DNA of 64,000 nt, from contig NZ_JARUKW010000002.1 in NCBI RefSeq assembly GCF_029688845.1, positions 310,001-374,000 of the forward strand, read 5' to 3'. Below, piece after piece: positions 14,161 through 36,759 of the stretch (its first letter is position 1; each line of letters begins with the position of its first letter). The notes under the pieces were generated by a model, which made no database searches, had not been told where the DNA came from, and was given only the letters and a program-made list of their open reading frames with translations. This stretch comes from Natronococcus sp. A-GB1 (GTDB lineage: Archaea; Halobacteriota; Halobacteria; Halobacteriales; Natrialbaceae). Both the position numbers and the translations under genes were made by a program.

Positions 14161-14238
14161 ATGACGGCCGCTCTCGTCTGGCGCTGGCACGCCCGCTCGA
14201 GAGCGAACAGTGTCGTCGCTGCGGACGACGTGGTCTAA
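14161..14238 (+). CDS. Putative Trp-codon leader peptide of trpS
   Basis: A 25-codon ORF starting MTAALVWRWH and ending in a TAA at 14236-14238. Two Trp codons (TGG) stand at codons 7 and 9; Trp is the rarest amino acid, and the gene 84 bases downstream is a tryptophanyl-tRNA synthetase. The ORF begins at the position expected for the transcription start. Its last third can fold into a hairpin (14212-14229). This resembles the bacterial trp-type leader peptides, where a ribosome stalling on Trp codons controls the downstream gene. I infer the function from layout only. A competing reading in another frame (see the rejected list) contains two C-x-x-C pairs but has no start codon. Confidence 0.5.
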   Translation: MTAALVWRWHARSRANSVVAADDVV

Positions 14239-14322: not shown

Positions 14323-15555
14323 ATGCCGAACACGACCAATTCGACCGACCGCACCGACCATACGACTACCGACACCGCCGACACGACCGCCGACGCCGAC
14401 GATTTCACCGTTACGCCCTACGCCGTCTCCGGCAACGTCGACTACGAAAAGCTACTCGAGCGCTTCGGTGCCGATCCCCTCACCGACGCACACATCGAGC
14501 GCCTCCCTGACCATCCCGCGATCCGCAGACGAACGTTCTATGCGGGCCGCGACGTCGACCGCTACCTCGAGGCTGCCGAGGCGGACGATCCGCACGTCTT
14601 GGTCACGGGCCGTGGCCCCTCTGGTCCGATGCACCTCGGGCACGTCCTGCCGCTGTATCTTGCGAAGCGGTTCCAAGAGAAGACAGGGGCGACGGTCTAC
14701 GTTCCGCTCTCGGACGACGAAAAGTACCTCGCGAAGAAGCAGTCGTTCGCCTCGATCGGCGAGCACACCCGCGAGAACCTGCGGGACGTTCTCGCCGTCG
14801 GCTTCGACCCCGCGAAGACCCGAATCGTCGTCGATACCGCCGACGCGGACGTGATCTACCCGATCGCCGTGCGACTCGCGAAACACCTCACGCCAGCGAC
14901 CGTCGAGGCTGTCTACGGCGAACAAAACACTGTCGGGCTGCAGTTCTATCCGGCCGTCCAGGCGACCCACCTCCTCTTGCCCCAGCTGGTCGCGGGCCGC
15001 CAGCCCACGCTGGTTCCGATCGCCGTCGATCAGGATCCCCACGTCCGCGTCTGTCGGAACGTCGCGGCGAGAGAGGCCCTACCGGTCGAGAAGCCAGGTG
15101 CCCTGCTCGGGCGTTTCCTGCCGAGCCTCGAGGGTCCGGGCGAGATGAGTTCCTCCAGCGAGGCGGCGTCGATCGAACTCACCGACGATCCGGGGACCGT
15201 CGCCGAGACGATTCACACTCACGCCTATACGGGTGGTCGGACGACGCTCGAGGAACACCGCGAGCAGGGCGGCGACCCGTCCGTCGACGTCCCGTTCCAG
15301 TACCTTCGGTTCTTCTTCGAGGACGATGACGCCGAACTCGAGCGCATTGCCCGGGAGTACCGGTCGGGGAACCTGCTCAGCGGAGAGCTGAAGGAGATCG
15401 CGATCGATCGGATCACCGATTTTCTGATCGAACACCAGCGTCGGCGGGATTCGCTTGACTCGCTCGCAGCCGCACTCGAGCCCTACCGGCTGTCGGAACC
15501 CGAGCGACGGCAGGCACTCGAGTCGGCCGGCGTTCCGACGTCGCTCCGGCCGTAG
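14323..15555 (+). CDS. trpS: Tryptophanyl-tRNA synthetase (second copy)
   Basis: 410 residues. Class I synthetase: the HIGH motif is HLGH at residues 104-107 in GPSGPMHLGHVLP, and the KMSKS region reads GEMSSSSEAASI. Motifs such as SDDEKYLAKK, FYPAVQATHLLLPQL and VAVDQDPHVR-type tRNA/Trp-binding loops follow the archaeal/eukaryal TrpRS pattern. The ATG at 14323 begins the Thr/Asp-rich haloarchaeal N-terminus; an in-frame ATG 66 bases upstream lies in the leader region and gives a basic extension. A second TrpRS gene is at 37560-39140, and the two proteins are clearly divergent, so this one may be an inducible or inhibitor-resistant paralogue. It follows a Trp-codon leader ORF. Confidence 0.9.
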   Translation: MPNTTNSTDRTDHTTTDTADTTADADDFTVTPYAVSGNVDYEKLLERFGADPLTDAHIERLPDHPAIRRRTFYAGRDVDRYLEAAEADDPHVLVTGRGPSGPMHLGHVLPLYLAKRFQEKTGATVYVPLSDDEKYLAKKQSFASIGEHTRENLRDVLAVGFDPAKTRIVVDTADADVIYPIAVRLAKHLTPATVEAVYGEQNTVGLQFYPAVQATHLLLPQLVAGRQPTLVPIAVDQDPHVRVCRNVAAREALPVEKPGALLGRFLPSLEGPGEMSSSSEAASIELTDDPGTVAETIHTHAYTGGRTTLEEHREQGGDPSVDVPFQYLRFFFEDDDAELERIAREYRSGNLLSGELKEIAIDRITDFLIEHQRRRDSLDSLAAALEPYRLSEPERRQALESAGVPTSLRP

Positions 15556-33095: not shown

Positions 33096-34916
33096 CTACC
33101 GTAGCGCCTCGATATCGAATTCGAACGCCGCGACGGGCACCTCGAGGTCGTGCTCGACGAGCACTTTCGGGTGGATCTCGCCGACGACACCGACGACCTC
33201 GCCGTCGATGACGACGTCGGCCGCTCGACCCGGGATGAAGGTCGGATGCTCCGTGGCGGGCGTCTCGAGTTCGACGTCGAAATCACGGGCGAGCGCTTGA
33301 AGCCGCGCCTTGGCGTCCTCGTAGCCCGAACCGTGGCTCGCGAGGACGGCCCCAACGTGGCGTCCCTCGCCGACCCCCGTGTTCTCGGTTTCGTCGAGTT
33401 CGGCGGCGAAGCCGACCTCCGAGAGGTGTTGTGGGTACGCGCGGTGGGTGTTGTTCTCGAGCACCTGTAGCAGCGAGGGCAGACACCAGGTTCGGAGCAT
33501 CGTGTAGTCCTCGCTGTAGGGCTCCTTGATCGTCGCAGGCTCGCCCGCACCGTAGGCGTCAGTCCCCGGTTCCACGCCGAGGCGCTCGTAGTTCTGTCCC
33601 TCGTCGATCATGTGGAAGTTGAGCATGTCCTCGAAGCCGAGCCCGACGAGCTGCGTTCGAGCCGCGCGCTCGAGCCGGGACCGCTCGTGGCGGCCGCCGA
33701 CGGTGCCGACCTCGGGGTAGCGGGGCTCGAGGTCGTTGAACCCGTAGGCCCGTCCGAGGTCATCGATGACGTCGAGCGGGTGAAGCACGTCGACGCGGTA
33801 GGGTGGGATCGCCACCTCGTAGACGAGATCGTCCGTCGACACGCCCTCGGCTTTCGACTCGTCCGAACCCGTCGGGCTGTCCCGTTCCTCGAGTCCGTCT
33901 CGGTCCTCCAGGGGTGTAATGGAACTCCCGTCGTCGCCCGTCGCTTCGTTCTCGCTTCTCGTGGCGGCGAGCCCCGAGCGCTCGGCCAGATCGATCACCT
34001 CGTCGGGATCGAGATCGATTCCGAGGAGGGTCTCGATACGGTCGTGGGCGACCCGTTTCGTCTTCGTCGAGAGGTCGGGGCGCACCAACTCGCTGTCGGG
34101 GTACTCGACCCGGACATCCTCGAGCGTCGCACCCCGCGCTGCGAGCGCGTAGCAGACGATGTTCAGCATCTTGTCGATCGTCCACTGATCGGTGCCGGTC
34201 ATCTCGACGAATAGATCGCGCGAATCGGTCGAGACCTCGGTCCGACGACCGTTGATCACCGGCGGGAACGAGAACAGTCCGACGTCGTCGTAGATTGCCG
34301 GGTAGCGCTCGTACTCGCTGACGAGGCCGGCGTACTCGCGACCCGTCTGGTGTTCCTCGAGGACCTCTGCCGGCGTCAGCTCGGCGTCGGAATCGAGCGG
34401 GACGAACCGGTCCCCGTCGGGTTCGACGCCGACGTACCGAATCGTGGGGTTGCCCTCGGTGGCCGGACTTCCCTTGAGCATCGTCAGATCGTGAATCCCG
34501 ATCGCGCCCTTCGCGCGCTTGCGGCCCATCGTCGCGTGGAGCTTCTCCTGGAGCTGGATGAGCGAGTCCAGCCCGTCCTCGTCGAGATCGACGTCGCGGA
34601 TCACCGCGCCCGTGACGTAGGGTCGCTCGTCGGGGACCGACTCGTCGACCTCGATCGTCCACTCGGCGGAGTTAGTGGAGGGAACGTGCACGCCGCGGGC
34701 GTCGCCGTACTGGTAGCGCATCGAGCGAGCGACGCCCTCGACCGAGAGCCGATCGAGGCGGTCGGGCGCGAACTCGAGTTCGAACTCGTCGTCTTCGGTC
34801 CAGCCCTCGAACTCGAGGCCGAGGCCGAACAGCTCCTCCTGCAGTTCCTCGTCGCTTTTTTCCTCGTGGCCAGTCAGCTCGCGCAGCTCGTCGGGGTCGA
34901 TGTCGACGGTTGGCAT
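33096..34916 (-). CDS. pheT: Phenylalanyl-tRNA synthetase beta subunit
   Basis: 606 residues, archaeal/eukaryal type without the bacterial OB-fold start. MPTVDIDPDELRELTGHEEK begins the B1 region; the B3/B4 editing domain includes GRKRAKGAIGIHDLTMLKG; B5 domain with DPDEVIDLAERSGLAA; the catalytic-like module has EVGFAAELDETENTGVGEG; and a C-terminal VVGVVGEIHPKVLVEHDLEVPVAAFE. It edits Tyr-tRNAPhe and binds tRNA in the (alpha-beta)2 enzyme. Its ATG shares one base with the pheS stop (TGATG), so the two are translationally coupled. Confidence 0.96.
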   Translation of the reverse strand: MPTVDIDPDELRELTGHEEKSDEELQEELFGLGLEFEGWTEDDEFELEFAPDRLDRLSVEGVARSMRYQYGDARGVHVPSTNSAEWTIEVDESVPDERPYVTGAVIRDVDLDEDGLDSLIQLQEKLHATMGRKRAKGAIGIHDLTMLKGSPATEGNPTIRYVGVEPDGDRFVPLDSDAELTPAEVLEEHQTGREYAGLVSEYERYPAIYDDVGLFSFPPVINGRRTEVSTDSRDLFVEMTGTDQWTIDKMLNIVCYALAARGATLEDVRVEYPDSELVRPDLSTKTKRVAHDRIETLLGIDLDPDEVIDLAERSGLAATRSENEATGDDGSSITPLEDRDGLEERDSPTGSDESKAEGVSTDDLVYEVAIPPYRVDVLHPLDVIDDLGRAYGFNDLEPRYPEVGTVGGRHERSRLERAARTQLVGLGFEDMLNFHMIDEGQNYERLGVEPGTDAYGAGEPATIKEPYSEDYTMLRTWCLPSLLQVLENNTHRAYPQHLSEVGFAAELDETENTGVGEGRHVGAVLASHGSGYEDAKARLQALARDFDVELETPATEHPTFIPGRAADVVIDGEVVGVVGEIHPKVLVEHDLEVPVAAFEFDIEALR

Positions 34917-36424
34917 CAGTAGGTCACCTCCGCGTTCCGCAGGAACTCGAGGTCGGCAAGCGTCCCGTGGAGGTCACGGATATCCTCCGCGCCGGTCGCG
35001 AGCATCGCGAGCCGTTCGAGCGCGAGCCCCCAGGCCATGACGTCGCAGTCGACGCCGAGGGGCTCGAGCATCTCTTCGCGGAAGATCCCCGAGTTACCGA
35101 TCTCGATCAGTTCGCCCGTCGTCGGATGGGTGCCGAAGAGCTCGAAGCTCGGTTCGGTGTAGGGGTTGTAGTGCGGTTTGAACTGGATATCCTCGATGCC
35201 GAACTGGGCGTAGAACTCCTCGAACGTTCCCATCAGGTCTCGCACCGAGAGATCCTCGGCCATCACCCAGCCCTCGATCTGGTAGAACTCGAGCAGGTGG
35301 GTCGCGTCCAGCGTATCGTTGCGGTAGGCCTTCTCGACGCTGAAGTAGCGGGCGGGCGGTTCGATTTCGCCGATTTCCTCGCCCGAAAGGTACCGCGTGG
35401 AGAGCGAGGTCGTGTGCCCCCGCAGGGCGAGTGCCCGCGCGAAGTCCTCATCCCAGGGCGAGTGGTACCCCTCGCCGTCCTCGCCGACTCCCTCCCGGTG
35501 GGCGCGCTCGACGCGTTCGACGAGATCCTCTGGAAGCTCGTCGATGTGCGTCGGCTGCTCGAGGGCGAAGCGGTCCCAGTGCGTTCTGGCGGGGTGGTCC
35601 TGGGGCATGAACAGGCAGTCGTTGATCCAGAAGTCCGCGTCGGCGTGGGGGCCGTCCATCTCCTCGAAGCCCATCCCGACGAGGACGTCCTTGACGCGTT
35701 CGGACATCTCCCGGAGGACGTGGACGCGCCCGCCCTCGACGGTCTCGGCGTCGGCCTCGACGTTGTACTCGGCGAACTCGACGTCCTGCCAGTCGCCGCT
35801 GGTGAGCAGCTCGGGGGTCACCTGGCCGACGGTCTCGGCAGTTTCGACGCCGGCCATCAGCTCCGTCACGCCCTGCTCGGTGAGTTCCACCTCGCGGATC
35901 GTCGATTCGGCGACCTCGGCGAGTCCGCGGCGCTCGAGCTGATCGAGGACGTCGCCCGCCTCGAGCGTCCCCCCGTCGGCGAGCGACTCGAGGGCGTTGG
36001 CCTCCGGATCCGCGGCGGGGTCGGCGTCGGGATCGGCCATGATTTCGCCGCTGTCGATCGAGCCGTAACCCTTCCGGGCGTAGTTCGAGAGCGCGATGTC
36101 GACCTCTGCGCCCTCGAGTCCCGAACTTCCGATAACCTGCCCCATCGGGACGGGGTCGGCGTCGGCGCCGGCCTCGAGAGCGGCCTCGTAAAGCCGGACC
36201 TCGGGCAGGCCGTCCTCGACGTACGTCCGTCCCTCGTCGGTGAGCGAGATCGTTTCGTCGACACGTTCCGTGACGGCGACCAGTCCCTGCTCCTCGAGCT
36301 CGAAGGCCGCCCCGGTGACGGTTTCGGGCGGCAGGTCGGTCGCCGCGGCGAGGGCGTCGACGGGCGTCGCCTCGTCGGCGTTCGCGGCCTCGAGGACCGC
36401 GACCTGTGATTCTGGTAGTTGCAT
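34916..36424 (-). CDS. pheS: Phenylalanyl-tRNA synthetase alpha subunit
   Basis: 502 residues. About 200 N-terminal residues form winged-helix tRNA-binding domains (MQLPESQVAVLEAANADEAT, ELEEQGLVAVTERVDETI). The class II catalytic core follows: MGFEEMDGPHADADFWINDCLFMPQDHPAR, RYLSGEE, KAYRNDTLDATHLLEFYQIEGW (motif 2) and LGVDCDVMAWGLALERLAML (motif 3). It charges tRNAPhe. The gene is preceded, 166 bases upstream, by a leader ORF rich in Phe codons (36591-36671). Confidence 0.96.
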   Translation of the reverse strand: MQLPESQVAVLEAANADEATPVDALAAATDLPPETVTGAAFELEEQGLVAVTERVDETISLTDEGRTYVEDGLPEVRLYEAALEAGADADPVPMGQVIGSSGLEGAEVDIALSNYARKGYGSIDSGEIMADPDADPAADPEANALESLADGGTLEAGDVLDQLERRGLAEVAESTIREVELTEQGVTELMAGVETAETVGQVTPELLTSGDWQDVEFAEYNVEADAETVEGGRVHVLREMSERVKDVLVGMGFEEMDGPHADADFWINDCLFMPQDHPARTHWDRFALEQPTHIDELPEDLVERVERAHREGVGEDGEGYHSPWDEDFARALALRGHTTSLSTRYLSGEEIGEIEPPARYFSVEKAYRNDTLDATHLLEFYQIEGWVMAEDLSVRDLMGTFEEFYAQFGIEDIQFKPHYNPYTEPSFELFGTHPTTGELIEIGNSGIFREEMLEPLGVDCDVMAWGLALERLAMLATGAEDIRDLHGTLADLEFLRNAEVTY

Positions 36425-36499
36425 TCGCTTGTCTGAATGGCTGTCGGTCGGTCAGTTAGCGGTTCCGACTCCGTTCGGCGTGCGCTCCTCGATCGGACT

Positions 36500-36599
36500 G
36501 CCCGACTCGGGCGCCGCTCGAGGGCGCGACAGTCGCGGACGGTTTCGCCGAGGACGATCGGTGTGATCGCCCTCGAGTCCACCGGCCCGGTTACCGGGC
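36500..36599 (-). promoter_or_regulatory. Alternative RNA hairpins between Phe leader and pheS
   Basis: Read on the minus strand. H1: GCCCGG (36599-36594), loop TAA, CCGGGC (36590-36585); the loop is the leader's stop codon. H2: GAGGGCGATC (36574-36565) with GATCGTCCTC (36559-36550), ten pairs including one G-U. Competing pairing: CTCGAGGGCG (36577-36568) with CGCCCTCGAG (36526-36517), ten perfect pairs that would break H2. H3: GCCCGA (36512-36507) with TCGGGC (36505-36500). H2 and the competing pair exclude each other, the hallmark of a switch. No folding energies were computed. Confidence 0.55.
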
Positions 36600-36671
36600 G
36601 AAAAAGAAGCCGAACCCCTGAGCCGTAGCTGACTGGCGGACGACGCGCCGATCGCAGGGTTCGGATGCCAT
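36591..36671 (-). CDS. Putative Phe-codon leader peptide of pheST
   Basis: A 26-codon ORF from ATG 36671 to TAA 36593-36591. It starts MASEPCDRRVVRQ and ends QGFGFFFAR, so four of five consecutive codons near the end (36614-36600) are Phe, immediately before the stop. The downstream genes encode the two subunits of phenylalanyl-tRNA synthetase. In Escherichia coli the pheM leader (with a run of Phe codons) controls pheST by attenuation; this ORF has the same layout. A TATA-like CTTTTGC about 27 bases before the ATG suggests a leaderless transcript. Function is inferred from layout; translation is untested. Confidence 0.6.
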   Translation of the reverse strand: MASEPCDRRVVRQSATAQGFGFFFAR

Positions 36672-36693
36672 GTGAGAACGATTGCAACGGTGG

Positions 36694-36733
36694 TGCAAAA
36701 GCGTTACGCGACGTTCGCTATTCGGAATTTATC
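36694..36733 (-). promoter_or_regulatory. Candidate promoters of the pheST transcript
   Basis: Two minus-strand elements: ACGCTTTTGC at 36703-36694, about 27 bases before the leader ATG, which would make the leader ORF leaderless; and GGATAAATTCC near 36733-36723, a better TATA match that would give a leader of about 30 bases. Either places the Phe leader ORF at the very 5' end of the mRNA and gives pheS an untranslated region of 250 bases or more. Confidence 0.45.
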
Positions 36734-36759
36734 CTTCGGCCGGTAGTGTTCCACGCGAC

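Follow-up and report, generated by a model that had tools for sequence, protein, structure and literature searches.

A short ORF ending in a run of phenylalanine codons precedes the phenylalanyl-tRNA synthetase genes pheS and pheT of Natronococcus sp. A-GB1, and it is probably a cis-acting, ribosome-mediated leader-peptide regulator of pheST which senses charged tRNA-Phe. The anatomy of this putative sensor is well supported by the comparison of related sequences and comprises the ORF and its reading frame, the Phe codons, the leaderless spacing to the promoter, two RNA helices referred to as P1 and P2, and the specificity for pheS.

The leader ORF and its conservation

The window, i.e. the whole stretch of 64,000 nucleotides that was analysed, contains the following features of the pheST locus:

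36591-36671, minus strand: leader ORF of 26 codons, MASEPCDRRVVRQSATAQGFGFFFAR, whose start is the predicted first nucleotide of the transcript
36697-36708, minus strand: putative core promoter of the leader with a BRE-like TAACG(C) and a TATA-like TTTT, assigned by the spacing of the T-run to the ATG
36451-36466, minus strand: proximal element GGAACCGCTAACTGAC, about 40 nt 5' of pheS, found also in several genomes without a leader
34916-36424, minus strand: pheS, alpha subunit of phenylalanyl-tRNA synthetase (Pfam PF01409, 3e-79)
33096-34916, minus strand: pheT, beta subunit (Pfam PF17759, 3.5e-40)

The leader ORF extends on the minus strand from the ATG at 36671-36669 to the TAA at 36593-36591 and ends in GFGFFFAR, with Phe at four of its last seven codons (codons 20-24), in agreement with the sequence and positions given in the original prediction. 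It is separated by 166 nt from pheS, which is followed by pheT. The TATA-like box that had been predicted before the ATG is present as a T-run beginning 29 nt upstream, which is the spacing expected for a haloarchaeal promoter with a transcript beginning at the ATG. Within the window, the pheS leader is the only short ORF that combines at least three Phe among the last 12 codons with a promoter-like box, and a search for the nucleotide pattern of the paired arms gives one match, with 0.00 expected. The proximal element GGAACCGCTAACTGAC is probably a second, basal and leader-independent promoter of pheS.

For the comparison with relatives, 238 haloarchaeal pheS upstream regions from 158 whole genomes and 80 named loci, with some overlap of species, were used, and an ATG-initiated ORF 14-50 codons long was counted as a leader when three or more of its last ten codons were Phe. 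On these counts, an ORF of the Phe-leader type before pheS is not due to chance, because 187 of the 238 regions contain one on the sense strand and none of the 238 does so on the antisense strand, nor does any of 30 upstream regions of trpS2, the gene of a second tryptophanyl-tRNA synthetase. The leader occurs in 13 of the 17 families of the order and in 128 of the 158 genomes, two of which (L140 and L151) are doubtful, so that the expected retention of a short Phe-codon ORF in relatives holds widely. Among 20 archaea of the same phylum from beyond the order, no leader was found; one AT-rich genome contains unrelated F-rich frames.

Removal of near-identical copies left 153 leaders for the codon and helix statistics. 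Phe accounts for 555 of 1530 codons (36%) within the last ten positions and for 7 of 2615 (0.3%) in the remainder of the ORF, although these shares are conditional, as the ORFs were chosen by their Phe content, and the independent control is the antisense count. The leaders range from 23 to 48 codons with the frame retained, and their middle 10-15 codons are unconserved and variable in number, which is the predicted pattern of Phe enrichment among drifting codons. When the C-terminal nucleotide motif was searched without demanding an ORF, 146 of 148 instances were in the leader frame, the two exceptions (L089 and L232) being one frameshifted sequence from a single MAG. This frameshift is situated after the leader start but ahead of the Phe codons and could be an assembly error or the mark of a dying leader. 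The Phe block itself varies synonymously, with TTC/TTT counts of 97/42, 77/43 and 98/24 at positions 2-4, whereas for the first Phe 141 of the 153 leaders use TTC. Frame retention and synonymous Phe drift argue that the leader is translated. The spacing to the promoter is conserved as well: of the 153 leaders, 143 have a T-run that starts 28-32 nt upstream of the ATG, and in 132 the distance is 29-30 nt.

Haloferax volcanii provides transcript data for both leaders. Its transcript starts, determined by dRNA-seq, place a 26-aa uORF with a pI of 5.9 before pheS (HVO_2948) and a 23-aa uORF before trpS (HVO_A0127), given as Nos. 12 and 13 in Table 2 of Babski et al. (2016; PMC4983044). Neither gene has another TSS in this tabulation, and for pheS only the uORF start is listed, with none separate at an element of the GGAACCGCTAACTGAC type (PMC4983044). 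The Haloferax leaders in our sample, with 26 and 23 aa, agree with the published uORF lengths; some of the pheS leaders also match the tabulated pI (MASEPKRGARASEPTTDGFGFFFLTA, pI 5.9), and a trpS leader from the sample is MVSTSHANCWRWHAFREVDSIAV (23 aa). As compared by length and pI with the table, the Hfx. volcanii uORFs are evidently the same two elements, and in this species the tabulated pheS transcript starts at the 26-aa uORF, as predicted for the leader (PMC4983044). Babski et al. present them as small proteins/uORFs; cognate codons, helices, conservation and regulation are not mentioned in the accessible part of the paper, where structured leaders are judged atypical for haloarchaea (PMC4983044).

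Covarying helices around the Phe codons

Two helices were recognised in the leader RNA:

36656-36664, minus strand: 5' arm of P1, codons 3-6, CCGAACCCT, with the partner 36610-36618, supported by covariation in 153 leaders
36610-36618, minus strand: 3' arm of P1, GGGGTTCGG, Gly-Phe-Gly codons including the first Phe codon (36612-36614), supported by covariation in 153 leaders
36533-36589, minus strand: P2 hairpin 3' of the leader stop with the internal loop 5'-YGGAN / CGAAA-3' (covariance model E 6.8e-9)

P1 joins ORF nucleotides 8-16 to nine complementary bases of the Gly-Phe-Gly codons, and 93.5% of its cells are paired in the 153 leaders. Changes on both sides of a pair number 104 as opposed to 35 (sd 10, largest 51) in 500 shuffles, and the covariation score is 0.255 versus 0.128. 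Registers slid by 1-3 positions are paired in just 17-62%, and no enrichment of pairs was found immediately flanking the nine. Typical swaps are C-G to U-A at ORF nt 13 (73 and 51 leaders) and C-G to G-C at ORF nt 16 (93 and 26 leaders). The P1 3' arm could also pair with the P2 strand CGAAACC (6 of 7 bases), but this alternative was given no weight as support, as a purine-A mismatch is retained throughout.

The N-terminus MA(S/P)E(S/P) is conserved because codons 3-6 pair in P1, where Glu GAA pairs with Phe TTC and where, in Halorubrum, MALER goes with AFE. Judged by these substitutions, the leader N-terminus is an RNA constraint and the Phe run a codon constraint. The conservation of the ORF and its transcription in Hfx. 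volcanii, as tabulated (PMC4983044), would also be expected of a small functional protein, but the middle 10-15 codons are neither conserved nor constant in number, and the N-terminal conservation is base pairing, as the coupling of MALER with AFE illustrates. On the latter ground a functional micropeptide was ruled out, and we consider a role of the ORF as a small functional protein scarcely credible.

Several Halorubrum-type pheS loci (L105, L158, L218, L238 and L251) have an altered P1, in which MALER is combined with codons for AFE or AFG, and contain a smaller number of Phe codons. The Phe switch may be decaying in these loci, since the leader has disappeared from other loci of this genus.

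P2 follows the leader stop and consists of an outer and an inner covarying helix separated by a 5-by-5 internal loop; it was recognised in 130 of the 153 leaders. The loop YGGA/CGAAA is invariant, with YGGA mostly 6-11 nt past the leader stop, and the distance between P2 and pheS is widely variable. For 45 diverse sequences, 89% of the P2 cells are paired, with a covariation of 0.450 versus 0.150 in shuffled data and at most 51% pairing in slid registers. Searched with a covariance model over 40 genomes, P2 gave confident matches (E below 0.02) only before pheS; a function as genome-wide terminator was therefore rejected, and P2 is to be regarded as a pheS element. An Rfam scan gave no match for the P1-type and P2 motifs (E up to 1).

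P2, being specific to pheS and invariant in its loop, and the N-terminal residues, conserved on account of P1 pairing, would also suit a purely RNA-based element, in which P1, the U-rich Phe run and P2 form a terminator or a protein-binding site (e.g. for PheRS autoregulation) and the ORF is incidental. This reading appears improbable to us, since the frame, the Phe codons and the position of the start codon at the 5' end of the transcript are all retained while other codons drift. The synonymous TTC/TTT changes and the Trp leader described below, which has a different RNA yet cognate codons, also argue against it.

Proposed mechanism and the U-rich Phe run

According to the regulator model, transcription would begin at the leader ATG and ribosomes would therefore load at the 5' end. 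With plentiful Phe-tRNA, the ribosome would reach the stop codon, P1 would close behind it and the U-rich run would be exposed; P1 together with the exposed run would be an 'off' signal lowering pheST expression. With Phe-tRNA in short supply, the ribosome would presumably stall on the Phe codons and cover the P1 3' arm and the U-run, so that P1 is blocked and pheST expression rises. P1 with the exposed U-run is taken as 'off' because the loss of P1 with the U-run covered is the state special to Phe shortage, and the direction of the response would follow the logic of a synthetase gene. Folding with ribosome-blocked segments is consistent with this scheme, as the median probability of P1 is 0.96 in free RNA and falls to 0 when a ribosome occupies the Phe codons. 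In the folding model, such a ribosome removes P1 and leaves P2 free, and a ribosome on the stop codon allows P1 and covers P2; modelled in this way, the P1 structure depends on the position of the ribosome at the Phe codons. The 'off' signal may act at the U-run, where transcription would terminate or the RNA would be cleaved (by aCPSF1/FttA or in a hairpin-type manner), or else through RNA decay or pheS translation.

The U-rich run coincides with the remaining Phe codons:

36600-36608, minus strand: Phe codons 2-4 (TTC TTT TTC), U-rich run immediately 3' of P1, with synonymous variation and TTT enriched

Excluding the first Phe codon, TTT makes up about 24-29% of the leader Phe codons in two sample sets as opposed to 4% in pheS, whereas other well-sampled T-ending codons are barely raised in the leader compared with pheS (His 11% versus 6%, Asp 12% versus 9%). 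The excess of TTT at Phe therefore indicates that U-richness, or the rarer Phe codon, is favoured. The original prediction had regarded the T-rich Phe run as a terminator-like sequence, and the preference for TTT accords with this; a run of four or more T is present in 93 of 153 leaders, but in the other 60 the run is three or shorter, and in 38 of the 153 no T-run exceeds two. As a universal terminator, the Phe T-run was rejected on the count of these 60 leaders. None of the 153 leaders has a U-tract exceeding 3 in the interval from its stop codon to pheS, which makes the Phe block the sole U-rich run and means that a classical post-leader terminator is absent. A terminator scan of the window region likewise gave no terminator-like site, and no mutually exclusive terminator and antiterminator were found downstream of the leader, either in the 153 leaders or in the window scan.

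Termination at the very codons that are sensed raises a timing problem, which the original prediction overlooked, because RNA polymerase passes the Phe run before a ribosome can stall there. The problem would be avoided by aCPSF1/FttA acting on RNA that has already emerged, by a polymerase pause near P2, by RNA decay or by translational control. In Methanococcus, aCPSF1 binds U-tracts of RNA (PMC8716108), and transcription can be terminated in Hfx. volcanii by T-stretches as well as by a hairpin from a coding region (PMC7237163).

Both reports fit a transcriptional readout as one version of the regulator model, in which the U-rich Phe run and P1 would be a signal for termination or for aCPSF1/FttA cleavage that is hidden by the stalled ribosome. 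The TTT enrichment restricted to Phe codons (29% versus 4% in pheS), the frequency of runs of four or more T and the lack of any other U-tract before pheS point in the same direction. The 38 leaders without a T-run longer than two do not fit, and the control codons of the Trp leader before trpS2 contain no U-run, so that such a signal is not a general principle. We assign this readout a chance somewhat short of even. In another version of the model, the position of the leader ribosome may determine how a full-length leader-pheS mRNA folds or how stable it is, and hence the translation of pheS. Here, P2 adjoins the stop codon, so that its 5' arm would be hidden under a ribosome that terminates there, no terminator site lies downstream, and the Hfx. 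volcanii uORF transcript is tabulated as the pheS 5'-UTR with no separate TSS (PMC4983044). Conserved pairing with the pheS start was not seen, however, and the variable distance from P2 to pheS speaks against such post-transcriptional control, which we consider possible but would not favour.

Evidence against the regulator model as a whole comprises, besides the timing problem and the 60 leaders with a short T-run, what seems to be a proximal second promoter, the leader being missing from 30 of 158 haloarchaeal genomes, and the lack of a U-tract terminator downstream.

The Trp leader before trpS2 and comparison with known systems

A leader of the same plan lies on the opposite strand of the window:

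14323-15480, plus strand: trpS2, second tryptophanyl-tRNA synthetase, 31% identical to the trpS adjacent to pheS
14161-14238, plus strand: trpS2 leader ORF, MTAALVWRWHARSRANSVVAADDVV, with Trp codons at 14179-14181 and 14185-14187; W-rich uORF also in relatives
14169-14176, plus strand: 5' arm of the trpS2 leader hairpin, CGCTCTCG, which together with its partner at 14198-14205 encloses the Trp codons

The matching trpS leader that had been predicted for the window thus exists before trpS2, but not at trpS1, the trpS adjoining pheS, and no cognate leader was seen at pheA, hisG or trpE of this genome either. A W-rich uORF before trpS2 is retained in 29 of 30 haloarchaeal genomes, usually with the sequence W-R-W. 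The best stem of the hairpin, between whose arms the Trp codons sit, has a mean of 9.8 pairs; shuffling an arm lowers this to 6.0, and the use of arms taken from other genomes to 7.9. Phe codons are found before pheS and Trp codons before trpS2, and not the reverse. That two synthetase genes are each preceded by their cognate codons, in unlike RNA but on the same plan, is the strongest argument that the translation of those codons is sensed.

The trpS2 loci L264-L292 also share a conserved pyrimidine-rich motif, GCTC(A/C)CTYCGCTTTCTC, past the Trp leader stop. This motif opens with a repeat of the hairpin's 5' arm, which could be a competitor for the 3' arm. In several genera, trpS2 is plasmid-borne.

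Both leaders could belong to a haloarchaeal class of ribosome-mediated attenuators, for at least Phe and Trp, that arose independently of the bacterial ones; in the Phe leader, the UUY codons would be at once the sensor and a U-tract signal for termination or cleavage hidden by the stalled ribosome. We put this forward as a tentative proposal and rate it as rather unlikely in this full form.

The closest known system is the pheST attenuator of Escherichia coli, whose pheM leader contains a series of Phe codons and responds to charged tRNA-Phe. Both are short ORFs with a Phe-codon run in front of pheS, but the leader described here is archaeal, has a leaderless start, lacks a U-tract terminator hairpin past the leader and shows no sequence relation to pheM. 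In addition, the first codons of its ORF take part in a hairpin whose 3' arm and immediate downstream flank contain the control codons, and there is the extra pheS-specific hairpin P2. With the bacterial trp, his and pheA attenuators it shares clustered cognate codons and a leader hairpin that a stalled ribosome would break, whereas RNA polymerase and termination factors are different and the terminator/antiterminator pair was not found. T-box leaders also stand before synthetase genes and sense tRNA charging, but they need no translated ORF, and an Rfam covariance match is absent here (E up to 1).

In the part of the literature that could be searched, no archaeal leader-peptide attenuator is described. 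Judged by its sequence features, the leader would work like a bacterial leader-peptide attenuator, but one defining feature of that class, the terminator/antiterminator pair downstream of the leader, was looked for and is lacking. If the regulator model is true, sensing of tRNA charging by a stalled ribosome operates in Archaea, on a leaderless mRNA and with a eukaryote-like RNA polymerase, and Hfx. volcanii would be a convenient system for studying the interplay of archaeal termination and the ribosome. With this leader, which most haloarchaea carry, the bacterial leader-peptide switch seems to have its first counterpart in Archaea.
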